Source: an uncultured bacterium (GTDB taxonomy: Bacteria; Verrucomicrobiota; Kiritimatiellia; RFP12; UBA1067). From it: DNA of 53,139 nt. The first letter of the stretch is position 1. Each line of letters opens with the position of its first letter. Made by a program: the position numbers and the translations under genes. The notes under the pieces are model-generated. The model did no database searches and was not told the origin of the DNA. It saw only the letters and a program-made list of their open reading frames with translations. Shown here piece by piece: positions 4,826-47,169 of this stretch. The DNA is taken from positions 1 to 53,139 of the forward strand of contig CACWJS010000052.1 in assembly GCA_902761275.1 (NCBI GenBank), written 5' to 3'.

Positions 4826-5142
4826 TCGTTCCTCCGTCTTCAGCCGGTTCCAGGTCGCGACGACCTGCGCAAGCGACGCGTCCCGGTAGAGCGCGCGGAT
4901 GCGGCGCATGACCTCCGCCTCGTCGATTTCCTCCGCCTTGGGCACGTAGACGAAGATGTGGAAGTGGTTCGACATGAAGGCGTACGCTAGGACGACGACT
5001 CCGCTGAACTCCTCGACTCGGCGCATCAGCGCAACGCGCGGTCTTTCTCCCCGTCGTCGAGGAAGAACGCCCGGTGCGCAAGCCGGCTGACAAGGTGATA
5101 GCACCTGTCCTGCCCTATGAACCTGTTTTTCCTCATGCAGGC

Positions 5143-5151
5143 ATCATACCA
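5143..5151 (-). promoter_or_regulatory. Extended -10 box (TGGTATGAT) of the RAYT gene
   Basis: Ends 6 nt before the ATG at 5136, so the predicted transcript would start at or next to the start codon (leaderless). Confidence 0.6.
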
Positions 5152-5160
5152 AAAACTCGG

Positions 5161-5199
5161 CTACTGTATCAATTTTACTGTATCAATAAGCTCTGACCC
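5161..5199. repeat. Solo, diverged copy of the MITE right end
   Basis: Resembles the right terminal inverted repeat of the MITE-like element at 5658-5696, with the two ACTGTGGTAA-like units changed to ACTGTATCAA and a closing CTCTGACCCT. It lies directly upstream of the RAYT promoter, linking the MITE ends with the RAYT gene. Confidence 0.6.
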
Positions 5200-5228
5200 T
5201 TCATTCTCTTTTGGATCAAGAACGCATT

Positions 5229-5435
5229 TCACCGCCCGAAAACAACCGTCACAACCGCACACCACATCGCCACCAGAACCAACAACACAACCCCAAGTCC
5301 CCTGCTTTTCTTGTCGCAAAGCAGAACCACGCCACAAATGCCAAAGACGATCCAGCCGAAACGAAGCAGCCAATAAACGACCGTGACAAGAAGAAACGCA
5401 ATGGTTAGTCCCCAATCCATCCCGCAGAGAATCAT
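5229..5435 (-). CDS. Small membrane protein, 68 aa
   Basis: Short hydrophobic protein of unknown function. Two or three membrane segments are visible (about residues 8-22, 24-40 and 46-66), separated by a basic CDKKSRG loop. The ATG at 5435 has AAGGAG 7 nt upstream, the main support for it being real; an internal ATG at codon 6 is an alternative. It starts 24 bp from the left end of MITE copy A, whose internal -10-like box points towards it. I recognise no family. A spurious frame is possible. Confidence 0.5.
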   Translation of the reverse strand: MILCGMDWGLTIAFLLVTVVYWLLRFGWIVFGICGVVLLCDKKSRGLGVVLLVLVAMWCAVVTVVFGR

Positions 5436-5459
5436 CGCTCATCTCCTTGATCAACGATC

Positions 5460-5704
5460 GGAGCCAACAGGGTCAGACCTGATTGCCACAGTAAATTGCC
5501 ACAGTAGGTTTTCCTTGTCATAGCGGCGCGACCCTTTCGATTCGCCGCTTGCCCCCTTCAAACGCGCGGTGTGCCACTCGGCCGATCAGACGCTGGCACC
5601 GATCTGGAAGATTTATCATGCAACGTCTCATGCCGAACAGTATATCACAAACTCCCGCTACTGTGGTAATTTACTGTGGTAACCATGTCTGACCCTATAG
5701 CCCC
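5460..5704. mobile_element. MITE-like element, copy A (245 bp, 39-bp terminal inverted repeats)
   Basis: Non-coding element with terminal inverted repeats at 5469-5507 and 5658-5696 that match at 35 of 39 positions. Each end begins with AGGGTCAGAC and contains two tandem CCACAGTA units. A second copy lies at 7802-8014. The element holds a TGATATACT box at 5639-5647 in a context similar to the RAYT promoter (compare 5143-5199), which suggests derivation from a RAYT-carrying element by internal loss. RAYT proteins are known to mobilise REP palindromes; mobility here is inferred from the two copies and the inverted ends. No target duplication could be defined. Confidence 0.75.
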
Positions 5705-5705
5705 G

Positions 5706-5828
5706 CGACTCGGCGCATCAGCGCAACGCGCGGTCCTTCTCCCCGTCGTCGAGGAAGAACGCCCGGTGCGCAAGCCGGCTGACAAGGTGATAGCACCTGT
5801 TCTGCTCGATAACCCTGTTCTTTCTCAT
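5706..5828 (-). pseudogene. Relic of the 5' end of a RAYT gene
   Basis: About 138 bp including its promoter (5706-5843) align at roughly 90 percent identity with 5014-5151, the first 41 codons plus promoter of the RAYT gene at 4607-5136. Homology stops abruptly next to MITE copy A. The relic carries the same TGATG junction as the longer copy, so that change predates the duplication. Confidence 0.85.
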
Positions 5829-5834
5829 GTGGAC

Positions 5835-5843
5835 ATTATACCA
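5835..5843 (-). promoter_or_regulatory. Extended -10 box (TGGTATAAT) of the RAYT relic
   Basis: Perfect box ending 6 nt before the relic ATG at 5828. It could still drive leftward transcription through MITE copy A to the small membrane protein. Confidence 0.55.
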
Positions 5844-5877
5844 ATAAGCTGAACCTTTTTACCCTTTTACCATTTTG

Positions 5878-7053
5878 TCAATAACTCACAATCCAGCCAT
5901 TACCATAAAACCCAGCACCTGCATACGGCTCCGTGTGCTTCTCAAGAATCCGGCTTTCGCGCAAAACGGACCAATTGCACTCGAGCGCATCGTCTCCACT
6001 ACACCAGCTAGAGAGCGCACCTGTGTCGACATCGAACACTTCACAATACGTCATGGCGGACGGAAATGTATTCCTGGTGGTTAAATACAATTGGCCTTTT
6101 CGTACGCACATTTTATCCATTTTAGCATCCGATGAGATACGTTTCCAGCTCATTCCACCATCCCTTGATACATTTACAGCATCATCCGTTGAAAAACAAA
6201 TCTCCCCTGCATCTCCAATTCCGACACCCAAAATCCGATGTTTCGTCAGCCAACCTAGACTATCGGGATTTGGAATATTCAGCAACCTCCAGTTTTCCCC
6301 GCAGTCTTCAGAGACAACAATCCCCTTCATATAATCAGTCTCAGGGTATGAGGCACCCTCAGGCAAACACAAAACGCTTGCTACGATGCAACTTGAATAC
6401 GCATCAAAGTCCACAAATCCAACCCTATATGAAACATCACCGACTTTAACCCTACTCCTATAAACCTCAGCCGACGCATTTTTGTCTTTCGCAGTCAGGC
6501 AAAGATACAAATCTGAGGCACAAGAACCGATCAATGTGCCATTGCACGAAACCCCCTTATCGACGCCGATACGGCTATCAACTCGAATAAGAGCGACACT
6601 GTTAGTTGACCCTTCGAACAGGAATATGTTAACAGCACCGTCTTTTTGGGGGGCAACGGCCAAATATCGGCCTTCGTCTAACTTCAGCACGGTGATCAGT
6701 TCTTCAGGGACAAACACCCTGCCGTCAAGTGTCTTTGCCGTCGCAGATGTGCTGCCCGTCAGCCGAGCGCACACCCACTCGTCGCCATCGTTCGCACGTA
6801 CTGCGCCACAGCATGTAGGAACTCCGACGCTTTGAAACCTTTTCGAAACCTGTTCGTCAGTGAAAAAGTCATGAAACCTTGCGTCGGGAAACTTTAAGAG
6901 GCAACAGTCACCTTCATTTGGTTCAGACGGAATCAGCCTACAGCATTCCTTTGACAACGGGATGCCGCCGCGAGTTTGCGAGTACACTCTATAACCATAA
7001 GCAGCTACAAGCGTAAAACAGCATAGCACGCGAATACATGCGGGATAATTCAT
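5878..7053 (-). CDS. Exported BNR/Asp-box repeat protein of unknown role
   Basis: Protein of 391 aa. The N-terminus is hydrophobic (about residues 8-22) and looks like an uncleaved or atypical signal sequence. Two Asp-box (BNR) motifs, SEDCGENW and SRDGGMSW, occur in the second half, as in beta-propellers of sialidases and photosystem stability factors; the repeats around them suggest a six- or seven-bladed propeller. Sialidase catalytic arginines cannot be assigned, so a glycosidase role is not supported. Cysteines are frequent (CC pairs near residues 37 and 50). Base composition is noticeably less GC-rich than the core genes, and the gene lies between two direct MITE copies, consistent with acquired DNA. 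The ATG at 7053 has no strong ribosome site. Confidence 0.7.
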   Translation of the reverse strand: MNYPACIRVLCCFTLVAAYGYRVYSQTRGGIPLSKECCRLIPSEPNEGDCCLLKFPDARFHDFFTDEQVSKRFQSVGVPTCCGAVRANDGDEWVCARLTGSTSATAKTLDGRVFVPEELITVLKLDEGRYLAVAPQKDGAVNIFLFEGSTNSVALIRVDSRIGVDKGVSCNGTLIGSCASDLYLCLTAKDKNASAEVYRSRVKVGDVSYRVGFVDFDAYSSCIVASVLCLPEGASYPETDYMKGIVVSEDCGENWRLLNIPNPDSLGWLTKHRILGVGIGDAGEICFSTDDAVNVSRDGGMSWKRISSDAKMDKMCVRKGQLYLTTRNTFPSAMTYCEVFDVDTGALSSWCSGDDALECNWSVLRESRILEKHTEPYAGAGFYGNGWIVSY

Positions 7054-7801: not shown

Positions 7802-8014
7802 GGAGCCAACAGGGTCAGACCTGATTGCCACAGTAAATTGCCACAGTAGGTTTTCCTTGTCATAGCGGCGCGACCCTTTCGATTCGCAGCTTGCCCCCTT
7901 CCTGATCAAGCGCTGGCACCGATCTGGAAGATTTATCCTGCAACGTCTCATGCCGAACAGTATATCACAAACTCCCGCTACTGTGGTAATTTACTGTGGT
8001 AACCCTGTAGCCCC
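7802..8014. mobile_element. MITE-like element, copy B (213 bp)
   Basis: Direct repeat of 5460-5704. It shares the left boundary GGAGCCAACAGGGTCAGAC and right boundary AGCCCC, with two internal deletions of about 22 and 10 bp. Left inverted repeat at 7811-7849; right one truncated at 7978-8004. Like copy A it carries TGATATACT (7959-7967) on the minus strand and lies just upstream of a minus-strand gene. Confidence 0.75.
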
Positions 8015-8027: not shown

Positions 8028-8036
8028 ATTATACCA
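8028..8036 (-). promoter_or_regulatory. Extended -10 box (TGGTATAAT)
   Basis: Perfect box just outside MITE copy B, reading left through the MITE towards the lipoprotein gene (start 7756). No nearer start codon with gene-like features follows it. Confidence 0.5.
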
Positions 8037-9603: not shown

Positions 9604-10011
9604 CTAGTCGCCCTCCGCAATCATCGCCAGAAACCGCTCAGGCGGCGGGCATGGACGAAAGGTCTTCAAGTCGATGAAGGCGTGGCGCGTGTAGCCCGAG
9701 ACGAGAATGCCTTCCTCGCCCTTGCGGCGAACCTCGCAGGCAATCTCGATCCTGACGCCCTTCTGCGCCCTGACCCACGCGGTGACTTCGAGAAGGTCGT
9801 CGTAGCGCGCGCTGGAGCGGTAGTCGCACTCCGCGTGCGTCACGGGAAGCCCCCAGCCCTCAAGCTCGCACTCTTTGTAGGTATAGCCCATCGCGCGCAT
9901 AAGCTCGTTCCTCGCACGCTCGAACAGCGTGAGGTAGTTGCCGTAGTAGACGACGCCCATCTGGTCGGTGTCGGCGTAGGGAACGCGATACTCTATTGTG
10001 ACCTTTTTCAT
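9604..10011 (-). CDS. ybgC: YbgC/4HBT-family acyl-CoA thioesterase
   Basis: Hotdog-fold thioesterase of 135 aa. The N-terminal block YADTDQMGVVYYGNYL contains the catalytic aspartate and the H/N-containing loop of the 4-hydroxybenzoyl-CoA thioesterase family. Substrate is not predictable; E. coli YbgC associates with the Tol-Pal system and acts on short acyl-CoAs or acyl-ACP. The ATG at 10011 (MKKVTIEYR) is chosen because the next upstream ATG (10020) lies inside the -10 box. There are only 7 nt between that box and the ATG and no ribosome site, so the message is predicted leaderless. First gene of ybgC-queD-rsmD. Confidence 0.9.
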   Translation of the reverse strand: MKKVTIEYRVPYADTDQMGVVYYGNYLTLFERARNELMRAMGYTYKECELEGWGLPVTHAECDYRSSARYDDLLEVTAWVRAQKGVRIEIACEVRRKGEEGILVSGYTRHAFIDLKTFRPCPPPERFLAMIAEGD

Positions 10012-10018
10012 CCCCGGC

Positions 10019-10027
10019 ATTATACCA
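10019..10027 (-). promoter_or_regulatory. Extended -10 box (TGGTATAAT), leaderless arrangement
   Basis: Perfect box; 7 nt (GCCGGGG) separate it from the ybgC ATG at 10011, placing the expected transcription start on the A of the ATG. Confidence 0.75.
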
Positions 10028-14297: not shown

Positions 14298-16220
14298 TTA
14301 TGGGCGGGATTGTCTCTCTCGCATAAAATCCCTGATCATGTCCTTTACAACGGCCCAGCGTGCCTGCCTTAGGCGCTTCAAGTCCATCGTTATCTTCATG
14401 CGCTCCTTGTTGGCTTCGTCGTCGCCCACTGCGGGCAGCGTTCCGCGCACTTGCTTCAGGTGCGCTTCCCAGAACGACCTCACGAAATCCTGCATAATGT
14501 CGGTCGCGCTGAGAGTGCTCGACTGCGTCTTGCCAACCTCTACGAGAACGGCGTCGAGCCATGCCCTCTCCTGCCCTGCGAGACTCGCCGCAAACGCCGC
14601 GAACGCATCTTCGCCGCTCGCCGCCTCCATGCGCCATGTCTCGACGAACCTCCATGTAAAACCATGGGCAAACACCTCGCGCGGCAGGAAATCGCCAATC
14701 ATGCCGTCAAGCGTCTTGTCGCGTTCGTTCGCCATAAGGAACTGCATAAAAGCCATTTCGCGCGGCGGCGGTGGAGCGACCTCTGCGGCATCAGCCGCAG
14801 AAGGAGTTGAAAGTTGAATGTTTAAAGTTGAAAGTTGGCTATCCACGTCATACTCGTCGACAGGAGATTCCTGCGCGGCAGGCGCTGAATGGCGAGGAGC
14901 GGCGGCCATTTTTTTCCTGACCGCCTCAAGCTCTTCCGTAAGCGCGGCAGACGGAAGCCCAAGGAGCTTCGACGCCTCGCCCACCATGCTCGCCCTAAGG
15001 ACCGCCGACGAACATGCCGCGATAGTCGCAAGGACTGCTTTCGACACTCGCGCTACTGCGTCGATCGACGCGGGGTCGCGCTCTTTCGCGCGTTCTACAC
15101 GGCACTGGAAGGAGATTATCGACTCGCCCTTCTCCAAAAGCGCGCGAAACGCCTCTGCGCCTTTCGTCCTGAGGAACGAATCGGGGTCGTCGCCATCGGG
15201 AAGCGAGACGACGCGCACGGGGATTTCGGCGGCGAGCAGCATGCCTGCAGAACGGATCGTCGCCTTGTGGCCCGCCGCGTCGTCGTCATATACGAGGACG
15301 GCCTGGCTTGCGACGCGCTTCAGCATCCTGACATGCTCGTCTGTGAACGCGGTTCCCTGGCCTGCGACGGCGTTTGCGAAGCCGGACGAGTGAAGACGGA
15401 TGCAGTCGATCTGTCCTTCGCAGACTATCACTTCGCAGTGCGAGTCCTTGCCGATAGCGCGCGAGGCGCGGTCAAAGCCGAAGAGGACATTTGACTTCTT
15501 GAAGATGAGAGTCTCGGGCGAGTTGACGTATTTCCCGGAGTTCTTCTGCGCGACGAGCTGGCGGCCAGAGAACGCGACGACTCTCCCCTGCTTGTCGCGC
15601 ACGGGGAACATAAGCCGACCGGCGAAGCGGTGGTAGCCGCTGTCGCCAGGGCGCGTTGGCGCCTTGATGACACCAGCGGCCTCGAGTTCCTCGGGAGTGT
15701 ATTTGTATTTCTCGGCCCAGCGCAAGATGTTCGCAACGCCGTTCGGCGCATAGCCGATGCTCCAGTCCTCGGCAACTGCGCCGTCGAGAGCGCGGTCCTT
15801 AAGGTAATTGCGCGCAAGCTCGCCTTCTTTGGCTTGCAGGAGACAGCGGCGATAGAAGGCCGCGAGCTCTGCCATCAGCGCGTAGAGGCGCTTGCGCTGG
15901 CCAGCGTTGGGGTCTTCGGTTTCCTCGATCTTGACGCCGCACTGCTCGGCGAGCTTCTTGACGGCCTCGACGAAGGTGAGCCCCTCTTGCTTCTGGACGA
16001 ACTTTATGGCGTCGCCCGACTCGCCGCAGCCGAAGCAATGGTAGAAGCCCTTTGCGGAATTGATGTTGAACGAGGGCGTCTTCTCGTGGTGGAACGGGCA
16101 GCACGCCTTGGCCGATCCGCCGGCGTGCTTCACCTGGATTCCGTATGACGAGACGAGATCGGCGAGGTCGATTCTCGCCTTTATCTCCTCGATGACGGAC
16201 TCTGTGATTCCCATTGCCAT
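14298..16220 (-). CDS. dnaG: DNA primase DnaG
   Basis: Synthesises RNA primers at the replication fork. The 640-aa protein has the CHC2 zinc site (C41, H44, C62, C65), the RNA polymerase core with GYAPNG and RLMFPVRDKQGRVVAFSGR, the TOPRIM glutamate in VCEGQIDCI and the DDDAAG metal site, and a C-terminal helicase-interaction region. Near residues 462-472 the linker between TOPRIM core and C-terminal domain is encoded by four GTTGAAA heptamers (14806-14837), giving SQLSTLNIQLST. Start: ATG at 16220 or 16214; no ribosome site is seen, and the -10 box ends 13 nt upstream, so the leader would be a few nucleotides at most. First gene of a five-gene operon with moxR and VWA genes. Confidence 0.95.
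   Translation of the reverse strand: MAMGITESVIEEIKARIDLADLVSSYGIQVKHAGGSAKACCPFHHEKTPSFNINSAKGFYHCFGCGESGDAIKFVQKQEGLTFVEAVKKLAEQCGVKIEETEDPNAGQRKRLYALMAELAAFYRRCLLQAKEGELARNYLKDRALDGAVAEDWSIGYAPNGVANILRWAEKYKYTPEELEAAGVIKAPTRPGDSGYHRFAGRLMFPVRDKQGRVVAFSGRQLVAQKNSGKYVNSPETLIFKKSNVLFGFDRASRAIGKDSHCEVIVCEGQIDCIRLHSSGFANAVAGQGTAFTDEHVRMLKRVASQAVLVYDDDAAGHKATIRSAGMLLAAEIPVRVVSLPDGDDPDSFLRTKGAEAFRALLEKGESIISFQCRVERAKERDPASIDAVARVSKAVLATIAACSSAVLRASMVGEASKLLGLPSAALTEELEAVRKKMAAAPRHSAPAAQESPVDEYDVDSQLSTLNIQLSTPSAADAAEVAPPPPREMAFMQFLMANERDKTLDGMIGDFLPREVFAHGFTWRFVETWRMEAASGEDAFAAFAASLAGQERAWLDAVLVEVGKTQSSTLSATDIMQDFVRSFWEAHLKQVRGTLPAVGDDEANKERMKITMDLKRLRQARWAVVKDMIRDFMRERQSRP
14806..14837. repeat. 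GTTGAAA heptamers inside dnaG
   Basis: Four near-perfect heptamers in coding sequence. Unit length 7 is not a multiple of 3, so change by one unit would shift the frame before the C-terminal domain. Confidence 0.8.
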
Positions 16221-16233
16221 TGAATTAGGATAT

Positions 16234-16242
16234 ATTATACCA
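16234..16242 (-). promoter_or_regulatory. Extended -10 box (TGGTATAAT) for dnaG operon
   Basis: Perfect box, 13 nt before the first dnaG ATG; predicted leader of about 6 nt. Confidence 0.75.
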
Positions 16243-16316: not shown

Positions 16317-18194
16317 TCAGAAGACAACGCCCTTGCCGGAGTCGAGCGTCATGCGGTCGATGTCGGGCATCGGCGCGGAGGCGTTCGAAAGGCGGATCGT
16401 GTGGATGCCGGCAGAAAGCTCCGTGGCAATCACTACCTTCATGAACTTGCCGTCCGTTCCCTTCACATTTACGCGGCGCGGCGCGGCTCCATCAACTGCG
16501 AGATCGAACGCCCGATCGTCGGGTGACGAGTAGTCGATGGTGATAAGATACTCCCCAGTCTCGTCAACCTTGACATCACGCCACTCGAGGTAGTTGGTAT
16601 CGCGCTTGCCGAGCTTGCTGACGACCATTCCGCCCGACGCTCCTTCCATCGGCACAGGGGCGGCCGTGCCGAACTTCTCCGTGAATCGCTCGTCGAGCTC
16701 CTGGTAGTCGGCGAGATACGCGCACTCCGCCTCGTAGACCTTCCTCTGGACGCGCCTTTCGGCGTCGAAACGGTAGAACTTCGAGCCGTGAGGGGCGACA
16801 TTGACGGACACATGATCCTCAAAGCAGCCGACATCCGCCATCTCGACGAGATCAAACGCGTCGATCTTTCCGCCAAGGTCGAGATCGGACGCCCTAACCG
16901 TGAAATCGTGCGCCTTGCCGGAGCTGTTGTAAAGCGCAACGTAGCGCGACTTGCCGAACTTCTCGATTGCGTCCTTGACGAGAATATACGCGTCGCCGTC
17001 TTTAACAACGACATACCCCTGAAGCCCGAGATCGTTCTGGTTCATCGCAAGAATATAGGGGTTGGTGATAAGCGCCTTCGAGGACGCGGGGATGGTTCTC
17101 ACGTCGCATCCAATCAAGAGCGGCGACGAAAGCATGCACCACATGCCGAAGTGTGTAATTTCCTCGTCGGGGGTTATGCCGGTATCGCCGTGCTTGCCGA
17201 AGACCGACTTCATCTGCCCGACGAGCTGGCCGACTTCGAGCATGTCCATGTCGTTGTAGTGCCCGGGCTTAGAATATGCGCTCAAGTAAAGGTTCTCGCC
17301 TATGATCCTCCTGATCGAGCTCCAGTTGGCGCGAATGTCGCCAGTCGTGCGCCACGACTCCGCAATGTCCGCAGCCCAAGTTCCGGGGAACGCCCAGCGG
17401 CAGATGTTGAGCCGGACATCGGTTCTTCCCGTCGCCTTGATTGCATTCGCGATCTCGGTGTAGCGAACCTTCTCGTTGAGCTTGAGCACAAGTCCGCCGC
17501 AGTAATCGACCTTGATAAAGTCGAAGCCGAGGTCGACGAAGTGCAACTTGCAGTCTGCCGCATCGTGGCCATAAAGACCGCCGCCAATGCCGCCCTTGTC
17601 CTTGCCATCAGGACCGCCACCCCACATGCTGCCGCATGTGTCCGCGCCGCCATCGGAGTAGATGCCGGCCTTCAGCCCCAGCGCGTGGATTCCGTCAACG
17701 ACCGGCTTCATCCCGTTGGGGAAGCGCTTCGGGTGGAACCTGAGGATTCCGTCTTCGCCATGCCCCCAGAAAAAGCCGTCGTCGATGTTGACGTAGGTAT
17801 AGCCAGCGTCCTTGAGCCCGTTGGTCGCCATTGCCCTCGCGGTTTCGAGAATGACATCCTCGGAAATCTCCACGCCAAACGTGTTCCAGCTCGACCATCC
17901 CATGAGCGGGCGAATCTTCGGGTCGCTCGTCGGCGCAATCTTCGCGGCGTCGAGAAGCTTTGCCGCTCGCGCAGCCACGACTTCCTTGTCGGCACCCTCA
18001 AGGCGGCTCAAGTTGACATACGCCTTGCCCGCGGCAAGATCGACGCGGATGCGCTTGTCGCATTTCGGGCAATCCCTGTATTCGACGCGCTTGTCCGCGC
18101 GGGAGACTTCCGATGCGCCCTCTGCGCCAAACGACGCGTACGCGCCGACACCAGCAGCCAACAGAGCCAAGCTTCCAACATATACTGACTTCAT
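16317..18194 (-). CDS. Secreted GH27 alpha-galactosidase with C-terminal CBM-like domain
   Basis: Protein of 625 aa with a signal peptide (MKSVYVGSLALLAAGVGAYA). After a small CPKC-containing segment the glycoside hydrolase family 27 barrel starts at MGWSSWNTFG (about residue 96) and contains YVNIDDGF, GLKAGIYSD, the nucleophile in FIKVDYCGG and the acid/base aspartate in ESWRTTGDI. A C-terminal domain beginning YEAECAYL looks like CBM35/CBM6. It probably removes alpha-galactose from plant or host glycans outside the cytoplasm. Start at 18194 has AAGGAA upstream and its own promoter at 18224-18232; a longer frame without signal peptide is less likely. Convergent neighbours are absent, and ruvC lies just upstream in the same direction. 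Confidence 0.92.
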   Translation of the reverse strand: MKSVYVGSLALLAAGVGAYASFGAEGASEVSRADKRVEYRDCPKCDKRIRVDLAAGKAYVNLSRLEGADKEVVAARAAKLLDAAKIAPTSDPKIRPLMGWSSWNTFGVEISEDVILETARAMATNGLKDAGYTYVNIDDGFFWGHGEDGILRFHPKRFPNGMKPVVDGIHALGLKAGIYSDGGADTCGSMWGGGPDGKDKGGIGGGLYGHDAADCKLHFVDLGFDFIKVDYCGGLVLKLNEKVRYTEIANAIKATGRTDVRLNICRWAFPGTWAADIAESWRTTGDIRANWSSIRRIIGENLYLSAYSKPGHYNDMDMLEVGQLVGQMKSVFGKHGDTGITPDEEITHFGMWCMLSSPLLIGCDVRTIPASSKALITNPYILAMNQNDLGLQGYVVVKDGDAYILVKDAIEKFGKSRYVALYNSSGKAHDFTVRASDLDLGGKIDAFDLVEMADVGCFEDHVSVNVAPHGSKFYRFDAERRVQRKVYEAECAYLADYQELDERFTEKFGTAAPVPMEGASGGMVVSKLGKRDTNYLEWRDVKVDETGEYLITIDYSSPDDRAFDLAVDGAAPRRVNVKGTDGKFMKVVIATELSAGIHTIRLSNASAPMPDIDRMTLDSGKGVVF

Positions 18195-18223
18195 CTTTCG
18201 TTCCTTTCCTTGAGAGATAGGGT

Positions 18224-18232
18224 ATTGTACCA
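18224..18232 (-). promoter_or_regulatory. Extended -10 box (TGGTACAAT) of the GH27 gene
   Basis: 29 nt before the GH27 ATG, with an AAGGAA ribosome site between; a normally led message. Confidence 0.6.
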
Positions 18233-19165: not shown

Positions 19166-19986
19166 CAGACGATCTTCCCTGCAAACTCCTCGAACGCAGG
19201 AAGCTCGATAAGCTCGGCCGCGCCAGCATCGATCGACGCGGCAAACGAAGGATCGACCGGGAGCCGCACGACTTCGGGGATTTCGAACTTCTTTGCGATC
19301 GCCTCGGCCTTGGACTCGCCAAACACCGAAATTTCCTTGCCGCAGTCGGGGCACTTCAGATAGCTCATGTTCTCGACGAGCCCCACGACCGGCTTTCCCA
19401 TCATCTTCGCCATCTTGACCGACTTCGAGACGATCATCTCGACGAGTTCCTGCGGCGAAGAGACGACAACAACGCCGTCAACGGGAAGCGACTGGAAGAC
19501 CGTGAGCGGCACGTCGCCGGTGCCAGGCGGCATGTCGACGAACATGACATCGAGCTCACCCCAGTGGACGTCGGTCCAGAACTGCTTTACTAACCCTGCG
19601 ATAACCGGGCCGCGCCAGACGACGGGGTCGGACGGATCCTCGACAAGCATGTTGAGCGAGATGACCTTTATCCCCGTGTTCGTCATCGTCGGCTCTATGC
19701 CGTCGTCCGACTTGTAGGTCGAGCCCGCGAGGCCGAACGCCTTGGGGATCGAAGGTCCCGTCACATCTGCGTCGAGGATTCCCACCTTGAGGCCGCGCTT
19801 TGCCGCAGCGACTGCGAGCATCGTCGTCACAAAGCTCTTTCCGACGCCGCCCTTTCCAGACGCGACGGCAATCACCTTGCCGACTTTCGACGCGGCGTTC
19901 AACTTCGCGGAGAAGTCGAACTTCTCCTTCCTGTCCCCACAGTTCTTCCCGCAGGTCGAGCAGTCGTGTGTACATTCTTCAGACAT
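19165..19986 (-). CDS. mrp: Mrp/ApbC-family iron-sulfur carrier ATPase
   Basis: P-loop ATPase of 273 aa that carries or inserts Fe-S clusters. The Walker A is the deviant ASGKGGVGKS (about residues 42-51), DADVTGPSIPK, VDMPPGTGD and the cluster-binding CPDC motif follow. The N-terminus is a cysteine-rich CTHDCSTCGKNC leader, an extra potential metal site, in place of the MIP18-like domain of longer ApbC. The ATG at 19986 has AAGGAG 9 nt upstream. First gene of mrp-J protein-ruvC. Confidence 0.92.
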   Translation of the reverse strand: MSEECTHDCSTCGKNCGDRKEKFDFSAKLNAASKVGKVIAVASGKGGVGKSFVTTMLAVAAAKRGLKVGILDADVTGPSIPKAFGLAGSTYKSDDGIEPTMTNTGIKVISLNMLVEDPSDPVVWRGPVIAGLVKQFWTDVHWGELDVMFVDMPPGTGDVPLTVFQSLPVDGVVVVSSPQELVEMIVSKSVKMAKMMGKPVVGLVENMSYLKCPDCGKEISVFGESKAEAIAKKFEIPEVVRLPVDPSFAASIDAGAAELIELPAFEEFAGKIV

Positions 19987-20015
19987 TTAACACTCCTTGT
20001 CATCAACTCAGGAGC

Positions 20016-20024
20016 ATTATACCA
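20016..20024 (-). promoter_or_regulatory. Extended -10 box (TGGTATAAT) for mrp-J protein-ruvC
   Basis: Perfect box, 29 nt before the mrp ATG, followed by an AAGGAG ribosome site. Confidence 0.75.
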
Positions 20025-33644: not shown

Positions 33645-35366
33645 CTATTCTCTTTCAAGCGCGGCCTTGATCGCATCGACCGCGGCGTCGGGAGCGACGA
33701 CCTGCATCTTCGACTTGTCGTCGCAGCGACGCTTGATCTCTACGCCGCCGTTGGCAAGCCCCTTGGCGCCGACGACGACGCGGACAGGGAAGCCGATCAG
33801 ATCGGCGTCCTTGAACTTGACGCCGGGACGCTCAGCGCGGTCGTCGACGATTACGTCGATTCCAGCCGCCTCGAGCGCAGATTCGAGATCGTCCGCGATC
33901 TTCGTCACGTCTGGCTTGTCGGGATCGAGGTTTTCGACGATGACCTGGTACGGCGCGACAGACGCGGGCCAGATTATGCCGTCCTTGTCGTGGCACTGCT
34001 CGATGACCGCCTGCAGCGTGCGGCTCACGCCGACGCCATAGCAGCCCATGATCATCACGTGGTCCTCGAGCTTGTCGTTCTTGTATACGGCGTTGAACGC
34101 GGCGGAGTACTTCGTGCCTAGCTTGAAGACCTGCCCGACCTCGATGCCGCGCTTGATCGCCATGGGCTTGCCGCACTTCGCGCAGATGTCGCCGTCCTTC
34201 ACGATCACGAGATCGGCGTAGTCCGCGTCCGCGATCTTCGCGTCGCGCGCGAGGTCAACGTTCTTGAGGTGGAAGTCGTCCTTGTTTGCGCCGACGATGC
34301 GACCTTTCGCGCCCTTGAGCGCGATGTCCGCGACGATCTTGAGCGACGCGTCTGCGGGAGCGACGGGGCCGACGAAACCGGCGTTCGCGCCGGTCGCCTT
34401 GAGAACTGTGCCGAAATCGGCGAGCGCGACGGACTTCGCGCCGAGGAAGCGCTTTAGCTTCACCTCGTTCACATCGCGATCGCCCTGAACGCACACCATG
34501 ACCGGCTTGCCGTCGGCAACATACACGAGAGACTTGACGAAACGGTCGGCGGGAAGAGAGAGGAAAGAGGCGACCTCTTCGATCGTCTTCGCGTTGGGCG
34601 TCGCGACCTCTTCATACGCGGGGCAGTCGGCGTCGGCACACGGCGCGGCGCGGCGTTCCGCCTTCTCGAGATTTGCCGCGTAGCCGCAGCCGTCGCAGAA
34701 CGCGATGCCATCTTCGCCAGCGTCGGCAAGAACGTGGAACTCGTGCGTCATCGAATCGCCCATGTCGCCGCCGTCGGCCTGCACAGGAACGGCCTTGAGC
34801 CCGCAGCGCGCGTAGATGCGCTCGTAGGCGTGGTACATGTTCCAGTAGCTCTTGTCCGCGCCCTCGGCGTCCGTGTCGAAGGAGTAGGCGTCCTTCATGA
34901 GAAATTCCTTAGAGCGCATGAGCCCGAACCTCGGGCGCGTCTCGTCGCGGAACTTCCACTGGATCTGGTAGATCGTGACAGGAAGCTGGCGATAGGAGCT
35001 GATGAGCGACTTCGCGAGGTCGGTGAACACCTCCTCTGCCGTCGGCCCGAGCGCGAACTCGTGTTCGCCGCGGTCGCGGAGCTTGAACATGTTCGGGCCC
35101 ATCGTGTCCCAGCGGCCAGTGGTGCGCCAGAGCTCAGCCGGCTGCAGGATAGGCGAGACGATTTCAAGGGCGCCCGCGCGATCCATTTCCTCGCGGACGA
35201 TCTCCATGATCTTCTTGAGCGAGCGCATTCCGAGCGGCAGGTACGCGTAAAGTCCGCCGGCGACCTTGCGCGCGAGGCCAGCGCGCATCAGTAGGCGATG
35301 AGAGTCGATTTCGGCGTCACCGGGATTCTCCCGGAGCGTCTGTATGAGAGATTTCGTCCATTTCAT
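33645..35366 (-). CDS. proS: Prolyl-tRNA synthetase (bacterial type with editing domain)
   Basis: Charges tRNA-Pro. The 573-aa protein has class II motif 1 (ALEIVSPILQPAELW), motif 2 (KFRDETRPRFGLMRSKEFLMKDAYSF), the INS editing domain between motifs 2 and 3 (about residues 220-400, with ADRFVKSLVYVADGKPVMVC), motif 3 GCYGVGVSRTLQAVIEQ and the anticodon-binding C-terminal domain. The ATG at 35366 begins MKWTKSLIQTLRENP, the standard family start; it lies 9 nt after the -10 box with no ribosome site, so the message is predicted to have almost no leader. Confidence 0.96.
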   Translation of the reverse strand: MKWTKSLIQTLRENPGDAEIDSHRLLMRAGLARKVAGGLYAYLPLGMRSLKKIMEIVREEMDRAGALEIVSPILQPAELWRTTGRWDTMGPNMFKLRDRGEHEFALGPTAEEVFTDLAKSLISSYRQLPVTIYQIQWKFRDETRPRFGLMRSKEFLMKDAYSFDTDAEGADKSYWNMYHAYERIYARCGLKAVPVQADGGDMGDSMTHEFHVLADAGEDGIAFCDGCGYAANLEKAERRAAPCADADCPAYEEVATPNAKTIEEVASFLSLPADRFVKSLVYVADGKPVMVCVQGDRDVNEVKLKRFLGAKSVALADFGTVLKATGANAGFVGPVAPADASLKIVADIALKGAKGRIVGANKDDFHLKNVDLARDAKIADADYADLVIVKDGDICAKCGKPMAIKRGIEVGQVFKLGTKYSAAFNAVYKNDKLEDHVMIMGCYGVGVSRTLQAVIEQCHDKDGIIWPASVAPYQVIVENLDPDKPDVTKIADDLESALEAAGIDVIVDDRAERPGVKFKDADLIGFPVRVVVGAKGLANGGVEIKRRCDDKSKMQVVAPDAAVDAIKAALERE

Positions 35367-35375
35367 GATTGAGAT

Positions 35376-35384
35376 ATTATACCA
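35376..35384 (-). promoter_or_regulatory. Extended -10 box (TGGTATAAT) of proS
   Basis: Perfect box 9 nt before the proS ATG. It lies back to back with the tcdA box, 19 bp apart. Confidence 0.75.
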
Positions 35385-35403
35385 AATCCGCGCGCGTGGA
35401 ATT

Positions 35404-35412
35404 TGGTATACT
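35404..35412 (+). promoter_or_regulatory. Extended -10 box (TGGTATACT) of tcdA
   Basis: 9 nt before the tcdA ATG on the plus strand; the only plus-strand promoter box tied to a gene in the window. Two polymerases could not occupy this and the proS box together. Confidence 0.7.
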
Positions 35413-35421
35413 TTACCGCGA

Positions 35422-36237
35422 ATGAAACATCCAGCCATATTCAGACGGACGGAGCTTATGCTCGGAACCGAGGCCCTCGACGCGCTCGCGCGCACGAAGG
35501 TCGCAGTCTTCGGCCTCGGCGGCGTCGGGAGCTGGTGCGCCGAGTCGCTCGTCAGGTCAGGCATCGGGAAACTGCTCCTCGTGGACTCCGACCGCGTCTG
35601 CATCACGAACGTGAACCGGCAGCTGATGGCCACGACGAAGACCGCGGGGCAGGTCAAGGCGGATGTCCTCGCAAAGCGTCTGAAGGAGATCAACCCCCTC
35701 GTCGAGCTCGATGTGCGGCAGCAGATATACTCGCCCGATACGGCCGGGGAATTCGCGCTGGACGAATACGACTACGTAATAGACGCGATAGACTCCCTCG
35801 ACTGCAAGGCGGCGCTCATACGCCACGCGCTCTCGATTCCGACGGTGACGCTCTTCGCCTCGATGGGCGCGGCGCTGAAGATGGATCCCTTCCAAATCCG
35901 CGCAACTGAGTTCCGCAAGGTCGAAGGCGACGGTCTCGCACGAGCGCTGCGCACCAAGTTCAAGAAGACCGGCGGCATGCCGACGCGAAAGTTCAAATGC
36001 GTGTGGAGCCCAGAGCGCCGAGAGAACCTGGGGCCGGCAGGCGCGGGGTGCGGCCTCGGCGAGTGCGTATGCCCGAAGGACCCGGGCGTCGGCGAGAGTT
36101 CGCTCGCAACGCACGAATGGTGCTCGTCAAAGGCGCGCATAAACGGCACGATCGCGCACACGACGGCGATCTTCGGCTTCGCGCTCGCAGGACTCGTCGT
36201 CCAAGACGTCGAGCGCAGGGTTAGAGAATTTTCTTAA
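35422..36237 (+). CDS. tcdA: tRNA threonylcarbamoyladenosine dehydratase (TcdA/CsdL), ThiF family
   Basis: E1-like enzyme of 271 aa that activates and cyclises t6A to ct6A in tRNAs. Nucleotide-binding GLGGVGSWCAE (residues 31-41), VDSDRVCITNVNRQ, and the VTLFASMGAA strand are visible, followed by the C-terminal block RRENLG and GTIAHTTAIFGFALAG. The ATG at 35422 (MKHPAIFRRTEL) is the family start. The gene is divergent from proS and its 3' end overlaps the fumarase beta gene tail to tail by 17 bp. Confidence 0.93.
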   Translation: MKHPAIFRRTELMLGTEALDALARTKVAVFGLGGVGSWCAESLVRSGIGKLLLVDSDRVCITNVNRQLMATTKTAGQVKADVLAKRLKEINPLVELDVRQQIYSPDTAGEFALDEYDYVIDAIDSLDCKAALIRHALSIPTVTLFASMGAALKMDPFQIRATEFRKVEGDGLARALRTKFKKTGGMPTRKFKCVWSPERRENLGPAGAGCGLGECVCPKDPGVGESSLATHEWCSSKARINGTIAHTTAIFGFALAGLVVQDVERRVREFS

Positions 36238-36836: not shown

Positions 36837-37955
36837 TTATTTAAGATATTTCCTAATGTTCTCGAAAAGCCAAGGAATCGTCTTCGGCTTGCGAGAGAGT
36901 ATCTGGCAGTGCGGCGCCTGCTCAATCCGAGCGGCATACGGAACCTTCGCAGCAGCAAGGCGGTTCGTGAGCGACTCATAATTCTGAACCGCGACGATTC
37001 CGTCTGTGCCCACCGACTTGGGCGGCGCCACCCCGGAATCCATCATCTTCCAGAGGTCCGAGTAGGGACGCTTCTTCCCTGCGACATAAGTAAACTTTTT
37101 CGTTGTAGGAACGGCTCCAGTGCTCCCATAGAGACAGATCGTCGGCGGGCAATTCTCCGAAACGAGGTTGACGGGCGAGTAGCGAGCGATCTCCTTGACG
37201 AGTTTCGTAAAGTCGCCATAGTTATACCCAAGACCAGAAAGGACGCCAAAGTTCGCCGCCCAGGTCGGGAAGGCGCCTTTGTTTGCGTCCATCCCAGCCA
37301 CTCCAAACTCTGGGCTGGAGATGTCGCTTGGGCCACAGTCGCTGAATACACAGGCGACCGGCACTGTGTGCTTGAGGTCGAGTCTGAGTACGGACGGGTT
37401 AGCGCCGTCGTAGGCATAGAGAAGCGAAAGATGTCCGCCCGCCGAGCTACCGCCGATTGCGAACTTCGAAATCTTGATTCCCGCCGCCTCGGCGATCTGC
37501 AGAAGGTGCGACACCATCGCGTCGATATCCCTCAGCATATCCGCGAAACCGTGCACCCCGCCATAGTCGCAGTTGCACAAGGCGTAGTTCATCGACGCCA
37601 CGACGAATCCGTTCTTCGCCATCTCGGCAAAAAGCGGCATTGGCCAGTTCTTGTTTCCGCTGATCCATGCTCCGCCGTGGACATAAAGGAAGAACGGCGC
37701 ATCCTCAGGAATCTTGCCTATTTTCGCTGGCAGATAGAGGTCGTATGTCTGTGCAACGTCCGGATGTGCCGCGCCCTTGCCCGGCTGTCGCGGACCATAG
37801 GCAATGTCTTTGCATACGAAGGAATTCCCTCCCTGAGGCATCTTCACCGGCTTGAGCGTCAACTGTTGCTCAGCGGCAGCCGACAGCGCAAAGCAGGCAA
37901 GACACGCAAGACAACACGTCATCTTCAATAATAAACTCTCGCGCCACTTCCTCAT
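36837..37955 (-). CDS. Secreted esterase/lipase of the alpha/beta hydrolase-3 (BD-FAE-like) group
   Basis: Protein of 372 aa with a signal peptide (about residues 8-28, ending SAAAEQQ). Oxyanion HGGAW, nucleophile elbow GGSSAGGH, and a late QAPHC histidine are typical of carboxylesterases related to bifunctional feruloyl/acetyl esterases acting on plant polysaccharides. The ATG at 37955 is 7 nt from a TGATATAAT box and lacks a ribosome site, predicting a leaderless message. Stop at 36837, ahead of the REP-like palindrome. Confidence 0.88.
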   Translation of the reverse strand: MRKWRESLLLKMTCCLACLACFALSAAAEQQLTLKPVKMPQGGNSFVCKDIAYGPRQPGKGAAHPDVAQTYDLYLPAKIGKIPEDAPFFLYVHGGAWISGNKNWPMPLFAEMAKNGFVVASMNYALCNCDYGGVHGFADMLRDIDAMVSHLLQIAEAAGIKISKFAIGGSSAGGHLSLLYAYDGANPSVLRLDLKHTVPVACVFSDCGPSDISSPEFGVAGMDANKGAFPTWAANFGVLSGLGYNYGDFTKLVKEIARYSPVNLVSENCPPTICLYGSTGAVPTTKKFTYVAGKKRPYSDLWKMMDSGVAPPKSVGTDGIVAVQNYESLTNRLAAAKVPYAARIEQAPHCQILSRKPKTIPWLFENIRKYLK

Positions 37956-37962
37956 GCGTCGT

Positions 37963-37971
37963 ATTATATCA
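37963..37971 (-). promoter_or_regulatory. Extended -10 box (TGATATAAT), leaderless arrangement
   Basis: 7 nt (ACGACGC) separate it from the esterase ATG at 37955. Confidence 0.7.
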
Positions 37972-38232: not shown

Positions 38233-38910
38233 TCACCAGTCCTTTCGTCCGCGTGAGAAGTTGAAGATCGGCAGCCACTTGGCGAGGCCGTGCGGATTGT
38301 AGTTGAGCAAGCCGACCTGAAAGGCACTACGCTCACCATAGTCACTCGCAGCATTAAACAATCCAACCTGTAGGCCGCCATCGGCATTGAACGCACCAAT
38401 CTGGAAGCAACCGTTAAAATTGTAGAATCCAGCCTGCAACCCACCGCCGGCGTTGGCCAGACCAACCTGCAAACCCGGCAACCATGGATATGGATCTCCG
38501 CCCCGATCACCAAAATTTGACTCGACATTAAAAGCACCAACGCTCACGCCGATATTGCGTCCCGTGAGGTTCAAAAGCCCGACCTCAAATGCATAATTGA
38601 ATTCGCAGACATCGATCAGCCCAACCTGCGTGAAATAGTTATTCGCGACTGCGTTCAGTGGTGCCAAAGAGGCAATAGCCGATTTCTGGTTCATGTTCAG
38701 CAAGCCCGCCGCAACGCCGTACACGTCGGCGTCACCGGGGAAGAGCTGGACCGGACGATGCGAACAAATACCGACTTGGATTGGCGTCCAGCCAACACGC
38801 AAAAGTCCATCGTCGGACTCAGGGCTCACATCAATCGGGCAATGCGCGAGCGCCACGCCGCACAACAATGCCGCGCAACTGGCAACAACAACTTTATAGC
38901 GAACTGACAT
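38233..38910 (-). CDS. LA_2272-like surface repeat protein, 225 aa
   Basis: Signal peptide (MSVRYKVVVASCAALLCGVALA), then degenerate repeats of the form (L/F)QVGL(L/F)N, e.g. TQVGLIDVCEF, EVGLLNLTG, LQVGLANAGG, LQAGFYNFNG, FQIGAFNADG, LQVGLFNAAS, FQVGLLNYNP. This pattern matches the LA_2272/LA_2273 surface-repeat family, of unknown function. The ATG at 38910 is used because the next upstream one lies inside the -10 box; only 7 nt separate box and ATG. Confidence 0.8.
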   Translation of the reverse strand: MSVRYKVVVASCAALLCGVALAHCPIDVSPESDDGLLRVGWTPIQVGICSHRPVQLFPGDADVYGVAAGLLNMNQKSAIASLAPLNAVANNYFTQVGLIDVCEFNYAFEVGLLNLTGRNIGVSVGAFNVESNFGDRGGDPYPWLPGLQVGLANAGGGLQAGFYNFNGCFQIGAFNADGGLQVGLFNAASDYGERSAFQVGLLNYNPHGLAKWLPIFNFSRGRKDW

Positions 38911-38917
38911 ATAGGAC

Positions 38918-38926
38918 ATTATACCA
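38918..38926 (-). promoter_or_regulatory. Extended -10 box (TGGTATAAT), leaderless arrangement
   Basis: Perfect box, 7 nt (GTCCTAT) before the ATG at 38910. Confidence 0.75.
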
Positions 38927-44493: not shown

Positions 44494-45022
44494 GCTGACA
44501 ATCCTTTCTCAAATCCTGTGAGTCCTGTAAATTCTGTCTAAAAGATTTCTTGCAACTGGCTTTTACGACAAAAGTATACCACAACAGCGCGAACACGGGC
44601 AAGAAGACTGCGATGCCTATGGACATGTGGACGGCGGGAATCTGCGACGCCGGGAAGAAGCCGTCCGCGTAGACGAGAAGGACGAGCCGCACAGCGTTCG
44701 CGAAAACGGCGACGAGCCACGCAGATACAACGGCGGCGGGAATTCTCAGCGCAAGATGGCGAATCGGCATGGCAAAGGCGAGGAGCGTAAACGCCATCGA
44801 GAAGAAGTCCGTCGCGGAACACGCCCGCACGACGGTGATCGTCACGCCCCGCGCCGAAATCGTCATCGTGGGGATATCAAACGCCGCGCCCAAATAGATC
44901 GTGGCAAGCCGCGCGGCGGGCCGCATGAAACCAAAGGCGACAACTGCATCAGGCAGCGCGTCGACAGCAAGCTTCACGCCAAGCGCAACAGCTACTGCTG
45001 CGGCTGCGACTCGGCGGCGCAA
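44468..45022 (-). CDS. Exosortase/archaeosortase-family membrane protease (exosortase K-like)
   Basis: Membrane transpeptidase-like protein of 184 aa, small for the family. The predicted catalytic triad is Cys68 in RACSATDFF, Arg112 in FANAVRLVLLVY and His132 in VHMSIGIAVF, each at the edge of a membrane helix as expected for exosortases. The compact size and the neighbouring MSEP-CTERM-like gene favour exosortase K, a subtype dedicated to one target. It would cut and re-attach the target near the membrane. Start: a TTG at 45022 directly after GGAGGA, overlapping the upstream gene by 31 bp; a GTG at 44977 is possible. The last 25 residues, polar and odd, overlap the next gene. Confidence 0.78.
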   Translation of the reverse strand: MRRRVAAAAVAVALGVKLAVDALPDAVVAFGFMRPAARLATIYLGAAFDIPTMTISARGVTITVVRACSATDFFSMAFTLLAFAMPIRHLALRIPAAVVSAWLVAVFANAVRLVLLVYADGFFPASQIPAVHMSIGIAVFLPVFALLWYTFVVKASCKKSFRQNLQDSQDLRKDCQHGNDLAKR

Positions 45023-45552
45023 TCCTCCTCCTTGGCGACTTCGCCGAGGGTCTTCGTGCCCGAAAGGAGCGCGACGACCTGGGACTGCACTTCGGCAAGG
45101 TTCTCAAGCCGGAGACGCGGGTCGAGAATGACGAAGGTGTCGCCCTGCTTGCGGTCTTCGTAGACGCGGCGGATCTTCCCGTCCTCAAGCTCCTTCGCAT
45201 CGCGCTCGACGAGTATCTTCGAGCGCTCGAGCATCACGGCGAGGACATAGACGACATTCTTCATCGCAGGGTCGTCGAGCGTGACGAGCTGCCTGAGAAG
45301 TTCGCCCGCGTCCTCCTTCTTAAGCGGCTCCTTCTTCTCTTCCTTCACAGGCGCGAGATAGACGCCGTCCCACTGCGAAAACGGCTCCCAGTCGCGCTCG
45401 GCGGTCTTCCAGCACTCCGGGTGACAGTCGAAACGCTCATACCCCTCGGGCGTTTCCTTAAGCGCGCTCACAACCGGCGCGCGGTCGACGAGCGGTTTCT
45501 GGCAGAGACTGCATACATGACCGCGAGACCTGATGTTCCATTCCTGTGACAT
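44992..45552 (-). CDS. Small protein with a Cys4/His-type zinc knuckle, 186 aa
   Basis: The N-terminus has C14-x2-C17 and C43-H44-x2-C47, a plausible single zinc site; the remainder is a charged helical region (EEKKEPLKKEDAGELLRQLV; YVLAVMLERSKIL) and FVILDPRL. No family with known function is recognised. It lies 25 bp after rluA and overlaps the exosortase gene, so it may assist that system or simply be co-transcribed. Confidence 0.7.
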   Translation of the reverse strand: MSQEWNIRSRGHVCSLCQKPLVDRAPVVSALKETPEGYERFDCHPECWKTAERDWEPFSQWDGVYLAPVKEEKKEPLKKEDAGELLRQLVTLDDPAMKNVVYVLAVMLERSKILVERDAKELEDGKIRRVYEDRKQGDTFVILDPRLRLENLAEVQSQVVALLSGTKTLGEVAKEEDCAAESQPQQ

Positions 45553-45577
45553 TGCTACTTCCCCATTCCAAAAAGCT

Positions 45578-46435
45578 TCAGGAAATCTCAGCGCTGCGCG
45601 TCAGCGGATGCGGCAGCGTAAGCGTGGACGCGTGGAGCATCTGCCGCGGAACGCGCATAAGCCGAGGGTCGCGCGCGTTCTTGAGCCCGAACACTCTGTC
45701 GCCCACTATCGGGAAGCGCAGCGACGCGAGGTGGCGGCGAATCTGGTTTGTGCGGCCAGTGTCTATGCGAACCCTCAGGAAACTCGCGTCTGCCGACTTC
45801 GCCTCTCTCGTCACGCGAGAGACGGCTGGTTGCCCATCAAGCGGAGTGTCGACGAGTCGGTGCGCAAACTTGAACTCGCCGACGACAACGGCGTGGTAGA
45901 CCTTCGACACGGCGTGCGTCTTGAATTCCTCTATCGCCGCCTCGAGCGCAGCGTGGTTCTTCGCGAACATGAGGCACCCCGTCGTGTCGCGGTCGAGACG
46001 GTGGACCGCCTCGAGAGTGGGAACCTTCTCCTGCTCGCGCAGAATCGCCTCGACGCTCTTCGGGTCGTCGCACGAAACGAGCCCTGCCGGCTTGTCGCAC
46101 ACGAGGTAGTTGTCATCCTGCCAAAGAACCCTCACATGCCTCTTTGCGGGGAGCGTGCCTGGCGTCGCGTTTTCGCGCGAACTCTGAGCCGACTGCCGCT
46201 GGGCACCCTTCACGACTGCCGACGGAACCTCGACGAGATCGCCTGTCTTGAGCGCATAGCGCGCAATCCACACGCACTTGCGGTTGACCCAGACGCTGCG
46301 CCCGTCAATGGCCGCCTTCGCCGCGCGGCGGGAAAGCGCAAACTTGAGGACGAGAAAATCCTGCAGTATCTTGGGATCCGGCTTGTTGACGGAGAGGGAT
46401 ACGATGCCCGCGGAATGCTGGTAGGGGCGGCGCAT
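45578..46435 (-). CDS. RluA-family pseudouridine synthase
   Basis: Protein of 285 aa with an N-terminal S4-like RNA-binding segment (LQDFLVLKFALSRRAAKAAI...) and the catalytic pseudouridine synthase core HRLDRDTTGCLMFAKN, where the aspartate acts. RIDTGRTNQIRRHLA and GDRVFG follow as expected. It modifies uridines in rRNA or tRNA; target not assignable. The ATG at 46435 lies 4 bp after the PAS gene stop. Confidence 0.9.
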   Translation of the reverse strand: MRRPYQHSAGIVSLSVNKPDPKILQDFLVLKFALSRRAAKAAIDGRSVWVNRKCVWIARYALKTGDLVEVPSAVVKGAQRQSAQSSRENATPGTLPAKRHVRVLWQDDNYLVCDKPAGLVSCDDPKSVEAILREQEKVPTLEAVHRLDRDTTGCLMFAKNHAALEAAIEEFKTHAVSKVYHAVVVGEFKFAHRLVDTPLDGQPAVSRVTREAKSADASFLRVRIDTGRTNQIRRHLASLRFPIVGDRVFGLKNARDPRLMRVPRQMLHASTLTLPHPLTRSAEIS

Positions 46436-46439
46436 CGCG

Positions 46440-47150
46440 TCAGACCTTGATGACGCTGCCGACCACGCCTTGGCACTTGTGGCCGAGCATGTTGGGCGCA
46501 AGGACGACCTCGACCTCCTCCTGGTCTTCATCGCCCTCGGCGACGATGCCGGTTACGGTCGTCTCGCCCGCGAGCGCCTTCTTGAAGTTCTCAGGTAACG
46601 GGTCGTCGGACATGAATTCCGCAAAGGTGTGAGTGCGTGCGTCCTCTTCGTCCTTGAGGTCGAACATTTCGCAGAACGCCGTGTTGCACTCGCGGATGTT
46701 GCCGTCGGCGTCGCAAGCGAAAAGCGCGCACTGCGCGACCTGGAAGGCGTTGGCCTTCGCGCGAAGCATGGTGTTGATGCGGCGGCGGCGCTCGGTGTTG
46801 CGGACGGTGAAGACGAGGTCGCCTGGATCCATCAAGTCGATTATCGAGACCGTCACCTCGCAGGAGAACTTCGAACCGTCCTTGTTGAGGCCGTTCGCGT
46901 CGATCATCATGTGGCGGTCGCCTTCAAGCCCGCGGCGTATGCGCTGGACTATCTCGGGCGCGAGCCCGGGGATGTAGAAGGAAATCGGCCTGTCGATCAC
47001 TTCGTCCTGGGTGTAGCCGAAGTGTTCCTCGGCCCTGGGGTTGATTTCGATGATGTGGCCATTCGGGTCGGTTATGACGACGGCGTCATACATTCCCGCC
47101 AGAAACTGGCGGAAGAGAGACTTGCGGTCTTTAGGCACGAATAGCGGCAT
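46440..47150 (-). CDS. PAS-domain protein, 236 aa, without output domain
   Basis: Two PAS modules are visible: residues 12-118 (MYDAVVITDPNGHIIEINPRAEEHFGY...) and 125-235 (QVAQCALFACDADGNIRECN...FCEMF). There is no kinase, cyclase or DNA-binding domain, so it likely senses a ligand or redox state and passes it to a separate partner. First gene of the operon leading to exosortase K-like and SNF2 genes. The ATG at 47150 is 10 nt from the -10 box. Confidence 0.85.
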   Translation of the reverse strand: MPLFVPKDRKSLFRQFLAGMYDAVVITDPNGHIIEINPRAEEHFGYTQDEVIDRPISFYIPGLAPEIVQRIRRGLEGDRHMMIDANGLNKDGSKFSCEVTVSIIDLMDPGDLVFTVRNTERRRRINTMLRAKANAFQVAQCALFACDADGNIRECNTAFCEMFDLKDEEDARTHTFAEFMSDDPLPENFKKALAGETTVTGIVAEGDEDQEEVEVVLAPNMLGHKCQGVVGSVIKV

Positions 47151-47160
47151 ATTGGGTGGT

Positions 47161-47169
47161 ATTATATCA
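47161..47169 (-). promoter_or_regulatory. Extended -10 box (TGATATAAT) for the PAS-RluA-exosortase-SNF2 operon
   Basis: 10 nt before the PAS ATG, predicted leader of about 3 nt. A second TATAAT overlaps just upstream at 47171-47176, inside the end of queA. Confidence 0.7.

Follow-up and report, generated by a model that had tools for sequence, protein, structure and literature searches.

How is a gene transcribed and translated when its promoter ends only a few nucleotides (nt) before the start codon? The question is raised by a 53,139-nt contig of an uncultured bacterium of the Kiritimatiellia, phylum Verrucomicrobiota (CACWJS010000052.1, assembly GCA_902761275.1), the whole of which is here called the window. 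A sequence-only reading of the window had listed nine extended −10 boxes of the type TGRTATAAT at 6–13 nt before ATG codons and had predicted that the messages behind them lack a leader. Re-reading of the window sequence showed that all nine motif positions and spacings are correct, and TGRTATAAT with at most one mismatch is found 31 times in the window versus 4.2 times (standard deviation 1.8) in shuffled sequences. The promoter spacing, promoter type and translation signals considered below suggest, with a probability that we estimate at roughly 0.9, that the genes with such a promoter 6–13 nt before the start codon are leaderless or nearly so.

Promoter spacing in the genome

The genome to which the window belongs measures 3.43 Mb in 256 contigs and is 88.8% complete. 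Two samples that together cover about a third of it were analyzed: an exploratory set of 40 stretches plus the window (770,939 bases) and a held-out set of 20 further stretches (L106–L125, 398,212 bases). The exploratory contigs were picked among those with listed motif matches, which inflates the motif density but leaves the spacing unaffected. For each TGNTATAAT site the spacing was taken to the first downstream ATG that opens at least 100 codons of open reading frame (ORF). Among the 122 exploratory sites, one lies at 0–5 nt, 52 at 6–9 nt, 12 at 10–13 nt and none at 14–22 nt. Farther sites are found at 23–31 nt (15), 32–40 nt (8) and 41–59 nt (10), and for 24 there is none. The 37 held-out sites are distributed as 2, 12, 0 and 2 over the same four near intervals and as 6, 4 and 2 over the farther ones, with none for 9. 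The genome-wide distance peak that the sequence-only reading had expected is present in the third of the genome covered by this check, sharp at 6–9 nt and with the range of 14–22 nt nearly empty. Its proposal that two modes of initiation are mixed in one genome is supported as well, and a second population begins at 23 nt and more often carries Shine-Dalgarno (SD)-like words.

The word itself is strongly enriched and oriented. TGGTATAAT occurs 311 times in the genome versus 5 times for the reversed word, and the pattern TGNTATAATN{6,9}ATG gives 202 matches in G000 versus 2 for its reversed control. In the exploratory set a long-ORF ATG is located within 60 nt downstream of 69 of the 79 TGGTATAAT words versus 10 of the 77 reverse-complement words, and the reverse complement of TGGTATAAT has no spacing peak at 6–9 nt in that set. 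Although 82% of the DNA was called coding, the sites are mostly located outside the called genes (136 of 162).

For a count by gene, 774 genes were called in both sets with a simple home-made codon-usage script, and promoters were scored with a weight matrix of 12 positions. A matrix site at 6–13 nt before a candidate start, which defines the near class, is present for 102 genes (13%); with shuffled columns and the same score the number is 0–3. For 88 further genes (the far class) the nearest start is at least 14 nt from the promoter, and the remaining 584 have no promoter. The spacing is 6 nt for 20 genes, 7 nt for 36, 8 nt for 21, 9 nt for 9, 10–13 nt for 16 and 14–22 nt for 8, with 80 beyond, and 77 of the 102 near genes fall at 6–8 nt. 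Of the 58 genes whose neighbour is divergent 24 are in the near class, compared to 23 of the 286 that are close-packed, which is an enrichment among the first genes of transcription units; co-directional genes separated by at least 40 nt contribute 50 of 349 and those at stretch ends 5 of 81. Its start codons are ATG in 91 cases, GTG in 10 and TTG in one, and leaderless GTG starts are likely.

The promoters would be of the housekeeping (sigma70-like) extended −10 type, with a consensus of about (A/T)T(T/A)TGGTATAAT. In 1.17 Mb, TATAAT has TGN directly upstream in 159 cases versus 117 without, and an ATG is found at 6–13 nt behind 76 of the 159 versus 15 of the 117. The transcription start was read from leadered promoters, since there its position is independent of any start codon: at spacings of at least 23 nt, 27 of 80 promoters have a pyrimidine-A step at the seventh base after the hexamer (background 8.1, p 1e-8). 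At a spacing of 6 or 7 nt, 44 of the 56 near genes have C as the base before the ATG, which puts the same pyrimidine-A initiator on the ATG's own A. RNA polymerase would thus start at the A of the start codon or 0–7 nt before it, and the same promoter type at least 23 nt upstream of other genes would give longer leaders, many of them with an SD sequence. Base tables of the promoters, in which the near/far split was flawed, gave no clear −35 element. In G041, a genome of another family (f3) in the same order, 38 of the 45 matches listed end in CATG by hand count, most of them with TGC and not TGG. The f3 genomes, G041 included, favour TGCTATAAT, and the window's genus mostly uses TGGTATAAT; genus here denotes genome group g1, and the families f2–f6 and genus g99 are likewise group labels.

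Leader state of proS among relatives

The leader state of a single gene, proS, was compared at 54 loci. Six of these (L075, L079 and L084–L087) lack the N-terminus and were excluded from the upstream count, which leaves 37 near relatives and 11 distant loci (Bacillota- or Clostridia-like, Veillonella, Bdellovibrionota, Elusimicrobia), 48 in all. Relatives with 70–99% identity carry titles such as Kiritimatiellae, Lentisphaerae, Verrucomicrobia or uncultured bacterium, and many are from ruminant gut. In the 37 near relatives TGRTATAAT precedes the proS ATG at 7–11 nt in 20 cases and at 26–47 nt in 5, with none at 12–25 nt; 12 are without TGNTATAAT within 70 nt. None of the 11 distant loci has TGRTATAAT before the ATG. 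With the window included, none of the 21 leaderless rows has an SD-like word, compared to 14 of the 17 others, and on the ProS tree the leader state changes at least seven times between leaderless and leadered or operonic. The M-K/R-W start of the protein is kept in four of the five Bdellovibrionota-titled loci, which are without the promoter, and this indicates that the proS start codon is right.

Again with the window included, 20 of the 21 leaderless proS rows have AAA as second codon and none of the 17 others does. The leaderless row without AAA, L102, is a contig end of 116 residues that was left out of the first tree. In that tree, which contains the faulty 138-residue row L083, leader state and AAA agree in all 6 independent pairs; when L083 is removed and L102 added, they agree in 5 or 6 of the 6 (p 0.03–0.06). 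In the 35 genomes of the genus 434 AAA and 227 AAG codons follow TGGTATAATN{6,8}ATG, compared to 1125 AAA and 1331 AAG after AGGAGN{4,8}ATG, and in 32 of the 35 the AAA share is larger in the first of these two settings. A link of AAA to leaderlessness throughout the genome was considered and rejected, as leadered promoter-led genes have 13 AAA to 5 AAG and leaderless genes 20 to 13. The genome-wide AAA bias looks like a feature of the first genes in a transcript, not of leaderless ones.

We tentatively propose that leader length is a two-state trait of each gene, either 0–7 nt or sufficient to accommodate an SD sequence, with lengths of about 8–16 nt being selected against, and that proS orthologs flip repeatedly between the two states and change their second codon at the same time (AAA in leaderless orthologs, not in others). 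The chance that this is correct seems to us slightly under one half. If it is, the genus would be a natural experiment on the gain and loss of leaders by genes. The repeated proS change among close relatives allows a comparative approach to the question why two modes of initiation are retained in bacteria.

Translation step and rival explanations

In the proposed scheme leaderless mRNAs would be translated by direct recognition of the 5′-terminal AUG, by the 70S ribosome or by 30S with initiator tRNA, and not by SD pairing. Direct recognition of this kind is described in PMC9031893 from work in other bacteria. The 16S rRNA of one congener, among 16S matches in 2 of 30 genus genomes, ends in GGATCACCTCCTTTCT, which is an intact anti-SD. 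In the window's own genome 16S was searched for and not found. Anti-SD types are treated in PMC10783764.

Several points weigh against the leaderless reading or limit it. SD-like words are present at 1 of 102 near, 57 of 88 far and 229 of 584 other genes, but in the near class they are few in part for geometric reasons, as the −10 box takes up the space where they would lie. Control words with C for G occur at 3, 3 and 30 genes of these three groups and purine-rich control words at 0, 40 and 151, and the SD signal of the far class, at 57 compared to 40 of 88, is real but not large. The weight matrix was trained on the same genes that were later counted by it. The nearest ATG of a long ORF can be the wrong start, as in the carboxyl-transferase case discussed below. 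A quarter of the near class (25 of 102) has a spacing of 9–13 nt, with leaders of about 2–7 nt, and such genes are predicted to be nearly rather than strictly leaderless. The −35 element may not be wholly absent, in view of a weak excess of TTGACA-like words at spacers of 17–18 (17 of 102 near and 21 of 80 far promoters, while single other spacings reach 9 and 10). It should also be kept in mind that we infer the actual start sites and SD-independent translation from sequence. Finally, the motif is less dense in the held-out set (37 sites, 0.40 Mb) than in the exploratory set (122 sites, 0.77 Mb). The lower density in L106–L125 may be due in part to the way in which the first set was selected, and foreign contigs in the bin could add to it.

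Three other explanations can be considered. The promoters could be real while translation begins at a downstream SD-led codon, with the near ATG being a chance in-frame upstream ATG. The window contains one case of this form, the carboxyl-transferase gene (3057–3115, minus strand), in which TGGTATAAT at 3115 is followed by an in-frame ATG at 8 nt (3098) and an SD-led ATG at 47 nt (3059), possibly an ambiguous or dual start behind one promoter. Chance, however, would not yield a peak at 6–9 nt together with a nearly empty range of 14–22 nt, nor is it in agreement with the C before the ATG at spacings of 6–7 nt or with a proS start that is kept in loci without the promoter, and we consider a general downstream start very unlikely. 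It is hardly credible that the motif is no promoter at all but another intergenic signal, such as a regulator's operator or a repeat that mobile elements have spread. The word is indeed very constant and some copies stand before repeated RAYT-like elements. Yet it matches the sigma70 extended −10, the leadered cases have a pyrimidine-A initiator at the expected +1, the words are oriented towards genes (69 of 79 versus 10 of 77 for the reverse complement) and their flanks are unrelated by eye.

The remaining alternative concerns only the translation step and is compatible with leaderless or nearly leaderless transcripts: standard 30S initiation might take place on very short leaders, aided by A/U-rich unstructured starts. 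The lower G+C in codons 2–6 (0.415 in near genes versus 0.461 in SD genes) would fit, as would the 25 near genes with spacings of 9–13 nt. The majority at 6–8 nt, with a predicted leader of about 0–2 nt, argue against it, since a leader of that length is too little for leader contacts on 30S. We regard this route as rather improbable. Alongside this argument we refer to a review (PMC9031893). In view of the above, leaderless or nearly leaderless messages are the preferred explanation for the near class.

Occurrence in the window, the phylum and known systems

Within the window the core genes proS and dnaG belong to the near class, as the sequence-only reading had stated. Gene identities below are by Pfam unless noted. 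On the minus strand TGGTATAAT (35376–35384) stands 9 nt before the proS ATG at 35366 (35364–35384; ProS). In the opposite direction TGGTATACT stands 9 nt before the ATG at 35422 of a ThiF-family gene, called tcdA earlier (35404–35424, plus strand). The two divergent −10 boxes (35376–35412) are 19 bp apart and both near-class, a layout that among related proS loci is found within 70 nt upstream in L049 and L052 only. All other sites that are given with a coordinate range are, like that at 5631, on the minus strand. TGGTATAAT precedes dnaG by 13 nt (ATG 16220; 16218–16242; DnaG), a 4HBT thioesterase gene, earlier named ybgC, by 7 nt (ATG 10011; 10009–10027) and a gene for a 225-amino-acid protein without Pfam match also by 7 nt (ATG 38910; 38908–38926). 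TGATATAAT is located 7 nt before an alpha/beta hydrolase gene, previously described as a secreted esterase (ATG 37955; 37953–37971), and 10 nt before a PAS-domain gene (ATG 47150; 47148–47169).

The site list of the sequence-only reading, correct in what it contains, missed other near sites, for example TGATATACT at 7 nt before ATG 7951 (7949–7967), which opens an ORF of 273 amino acids without Pfam match. The same TGATATACT, 7-nt spacing and ATGAGACGTTGC recur at 5631, where only 37 codons are open, and the upstream 30 nt are identical; 5631 and 7951 represent a duplicated unit that brings its own near promoter. Exact TGRTATAAT occurs 12 times in the window, of which seven were on the list and one is the carboxyl-transferase site at 3115. 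Leaders of 29, 26 and 59 nt follow the sites at 20024, 32505 and 53014, the last of which has an additional ATG at 6 nt with no long ORF behind it, and the site at 8036 has no long ORF downstream. The leadered type is illustrated by TGGTATAAT with a 29-nt leader containing AAGGAG before ATG 19986 (19984–20024) and by TGGTACAAT with a 29-nt leader containing AAGGA before ATG 18194 (18192–18232).

Two of the listed sites do not lead into intact genes as read. The ATGs at 5136 (6 nt behind TGGTATGAT; 5134–5151) and 5828 (6 nt behind TGGTATAAT; 5826–5843), which had been taken as RAYT gene starts, open only 36 codons each. The two RAYT-like copies (4607–5136 and 5400–5828) are nearly identical in these first 36 codons and share the in-frame stop, and behind the first a frame of 165 amino acids (4607–5104) follows in a different phase. 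The same break in both copies suggests that it was inherited or that the element is frameshifted.

All 35 genomes of the genus that were searched have a strong signature, which is also present in parts of the order but weak in most of the phylum. With TGNTATAATN{6,9}ATG each genus genome gives 17–232 matches (reversed control 0–3). The other 23 genomes of the order give 24–45 in f3, 0–87 in f6, 0 and 1 in f2 and mostly 0–7 in f4 and f5, apart from a single f4 genome, which gives 23 (control 8). Conclusions on the phylum are drawn from a scan of 240 genomes, since in a scan of the class for plain TATAAT (155 genomes) the reversed-word control was high in some. In the 240 genomes other genera of the family have 3–93 matches, f3 14–45, f4 and f5 1–7, and the genomes elsewhere 0–36, mostly below 10, where higher numbers often go with raised controls. 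One other genus (g99) stands out, with 18–28 matches in three genomes and controls of 0–3. A single motif misses leaderless genes that use other −10 forms. Gene finders that expect an SD sequence may put starts at wrong positions in these rumen bacteria. The promoters can be read straight from sequence in organisms that are here known only as metagenome bins.

A literature search that excluded most subscription journals yielded no report on leaderless genes of Kiritimatiellia, and a search on leaderless genes, Verrucomicrobia and promoters gave nothing on the subject by title. A search on second codons in connection with leaderless genes likewise gave no direct match among the papers listed. 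Leaderless genes as such were detected in 206 of 953 bacterial genomes by Zheng et al. 2011 (PMC3160421), in which Verrucomicrobia and Lentisphaerae are absent from the main text. The TA-led genes described there share with the present case a −10-like signal some 10 bp before the start codon and a mixture with SD-led genes, and the authors argue that only the first gene of a transcript can be of this type. They differ from the genes considered here in that the latter have an extended −10 (TGG before TATAAT) and a nearly empty zone between the leaderless and leadered classes. In Akkermansia muciniphila, of the same phylum, Cappable-seq of mouse caecum found 10% of mapped starts to be leaderless, located at annotated gene starts (PMC4782308); RNA was measured there, whereas the present reading is from sequence. 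Outside this order, TGNTATAAT sites 6–9 nt before an ATG are few in most genomes of the phylum.

The mycobacterial −10 is a looser TANNNT, whereas the hexamer here is nearly invariant TATAAT with TGG. Many leaderless genes alongside SD-led ones, as in the window's genome, are described for Mycobacterium tuberculosis (PMC3898074) and for Deinococcus deserti (named in the review PMC9031893). Leaderless genes are a known kind, also in this phylum; what is new here is the clade, the clean two-state spacing and the repeated change at proS.

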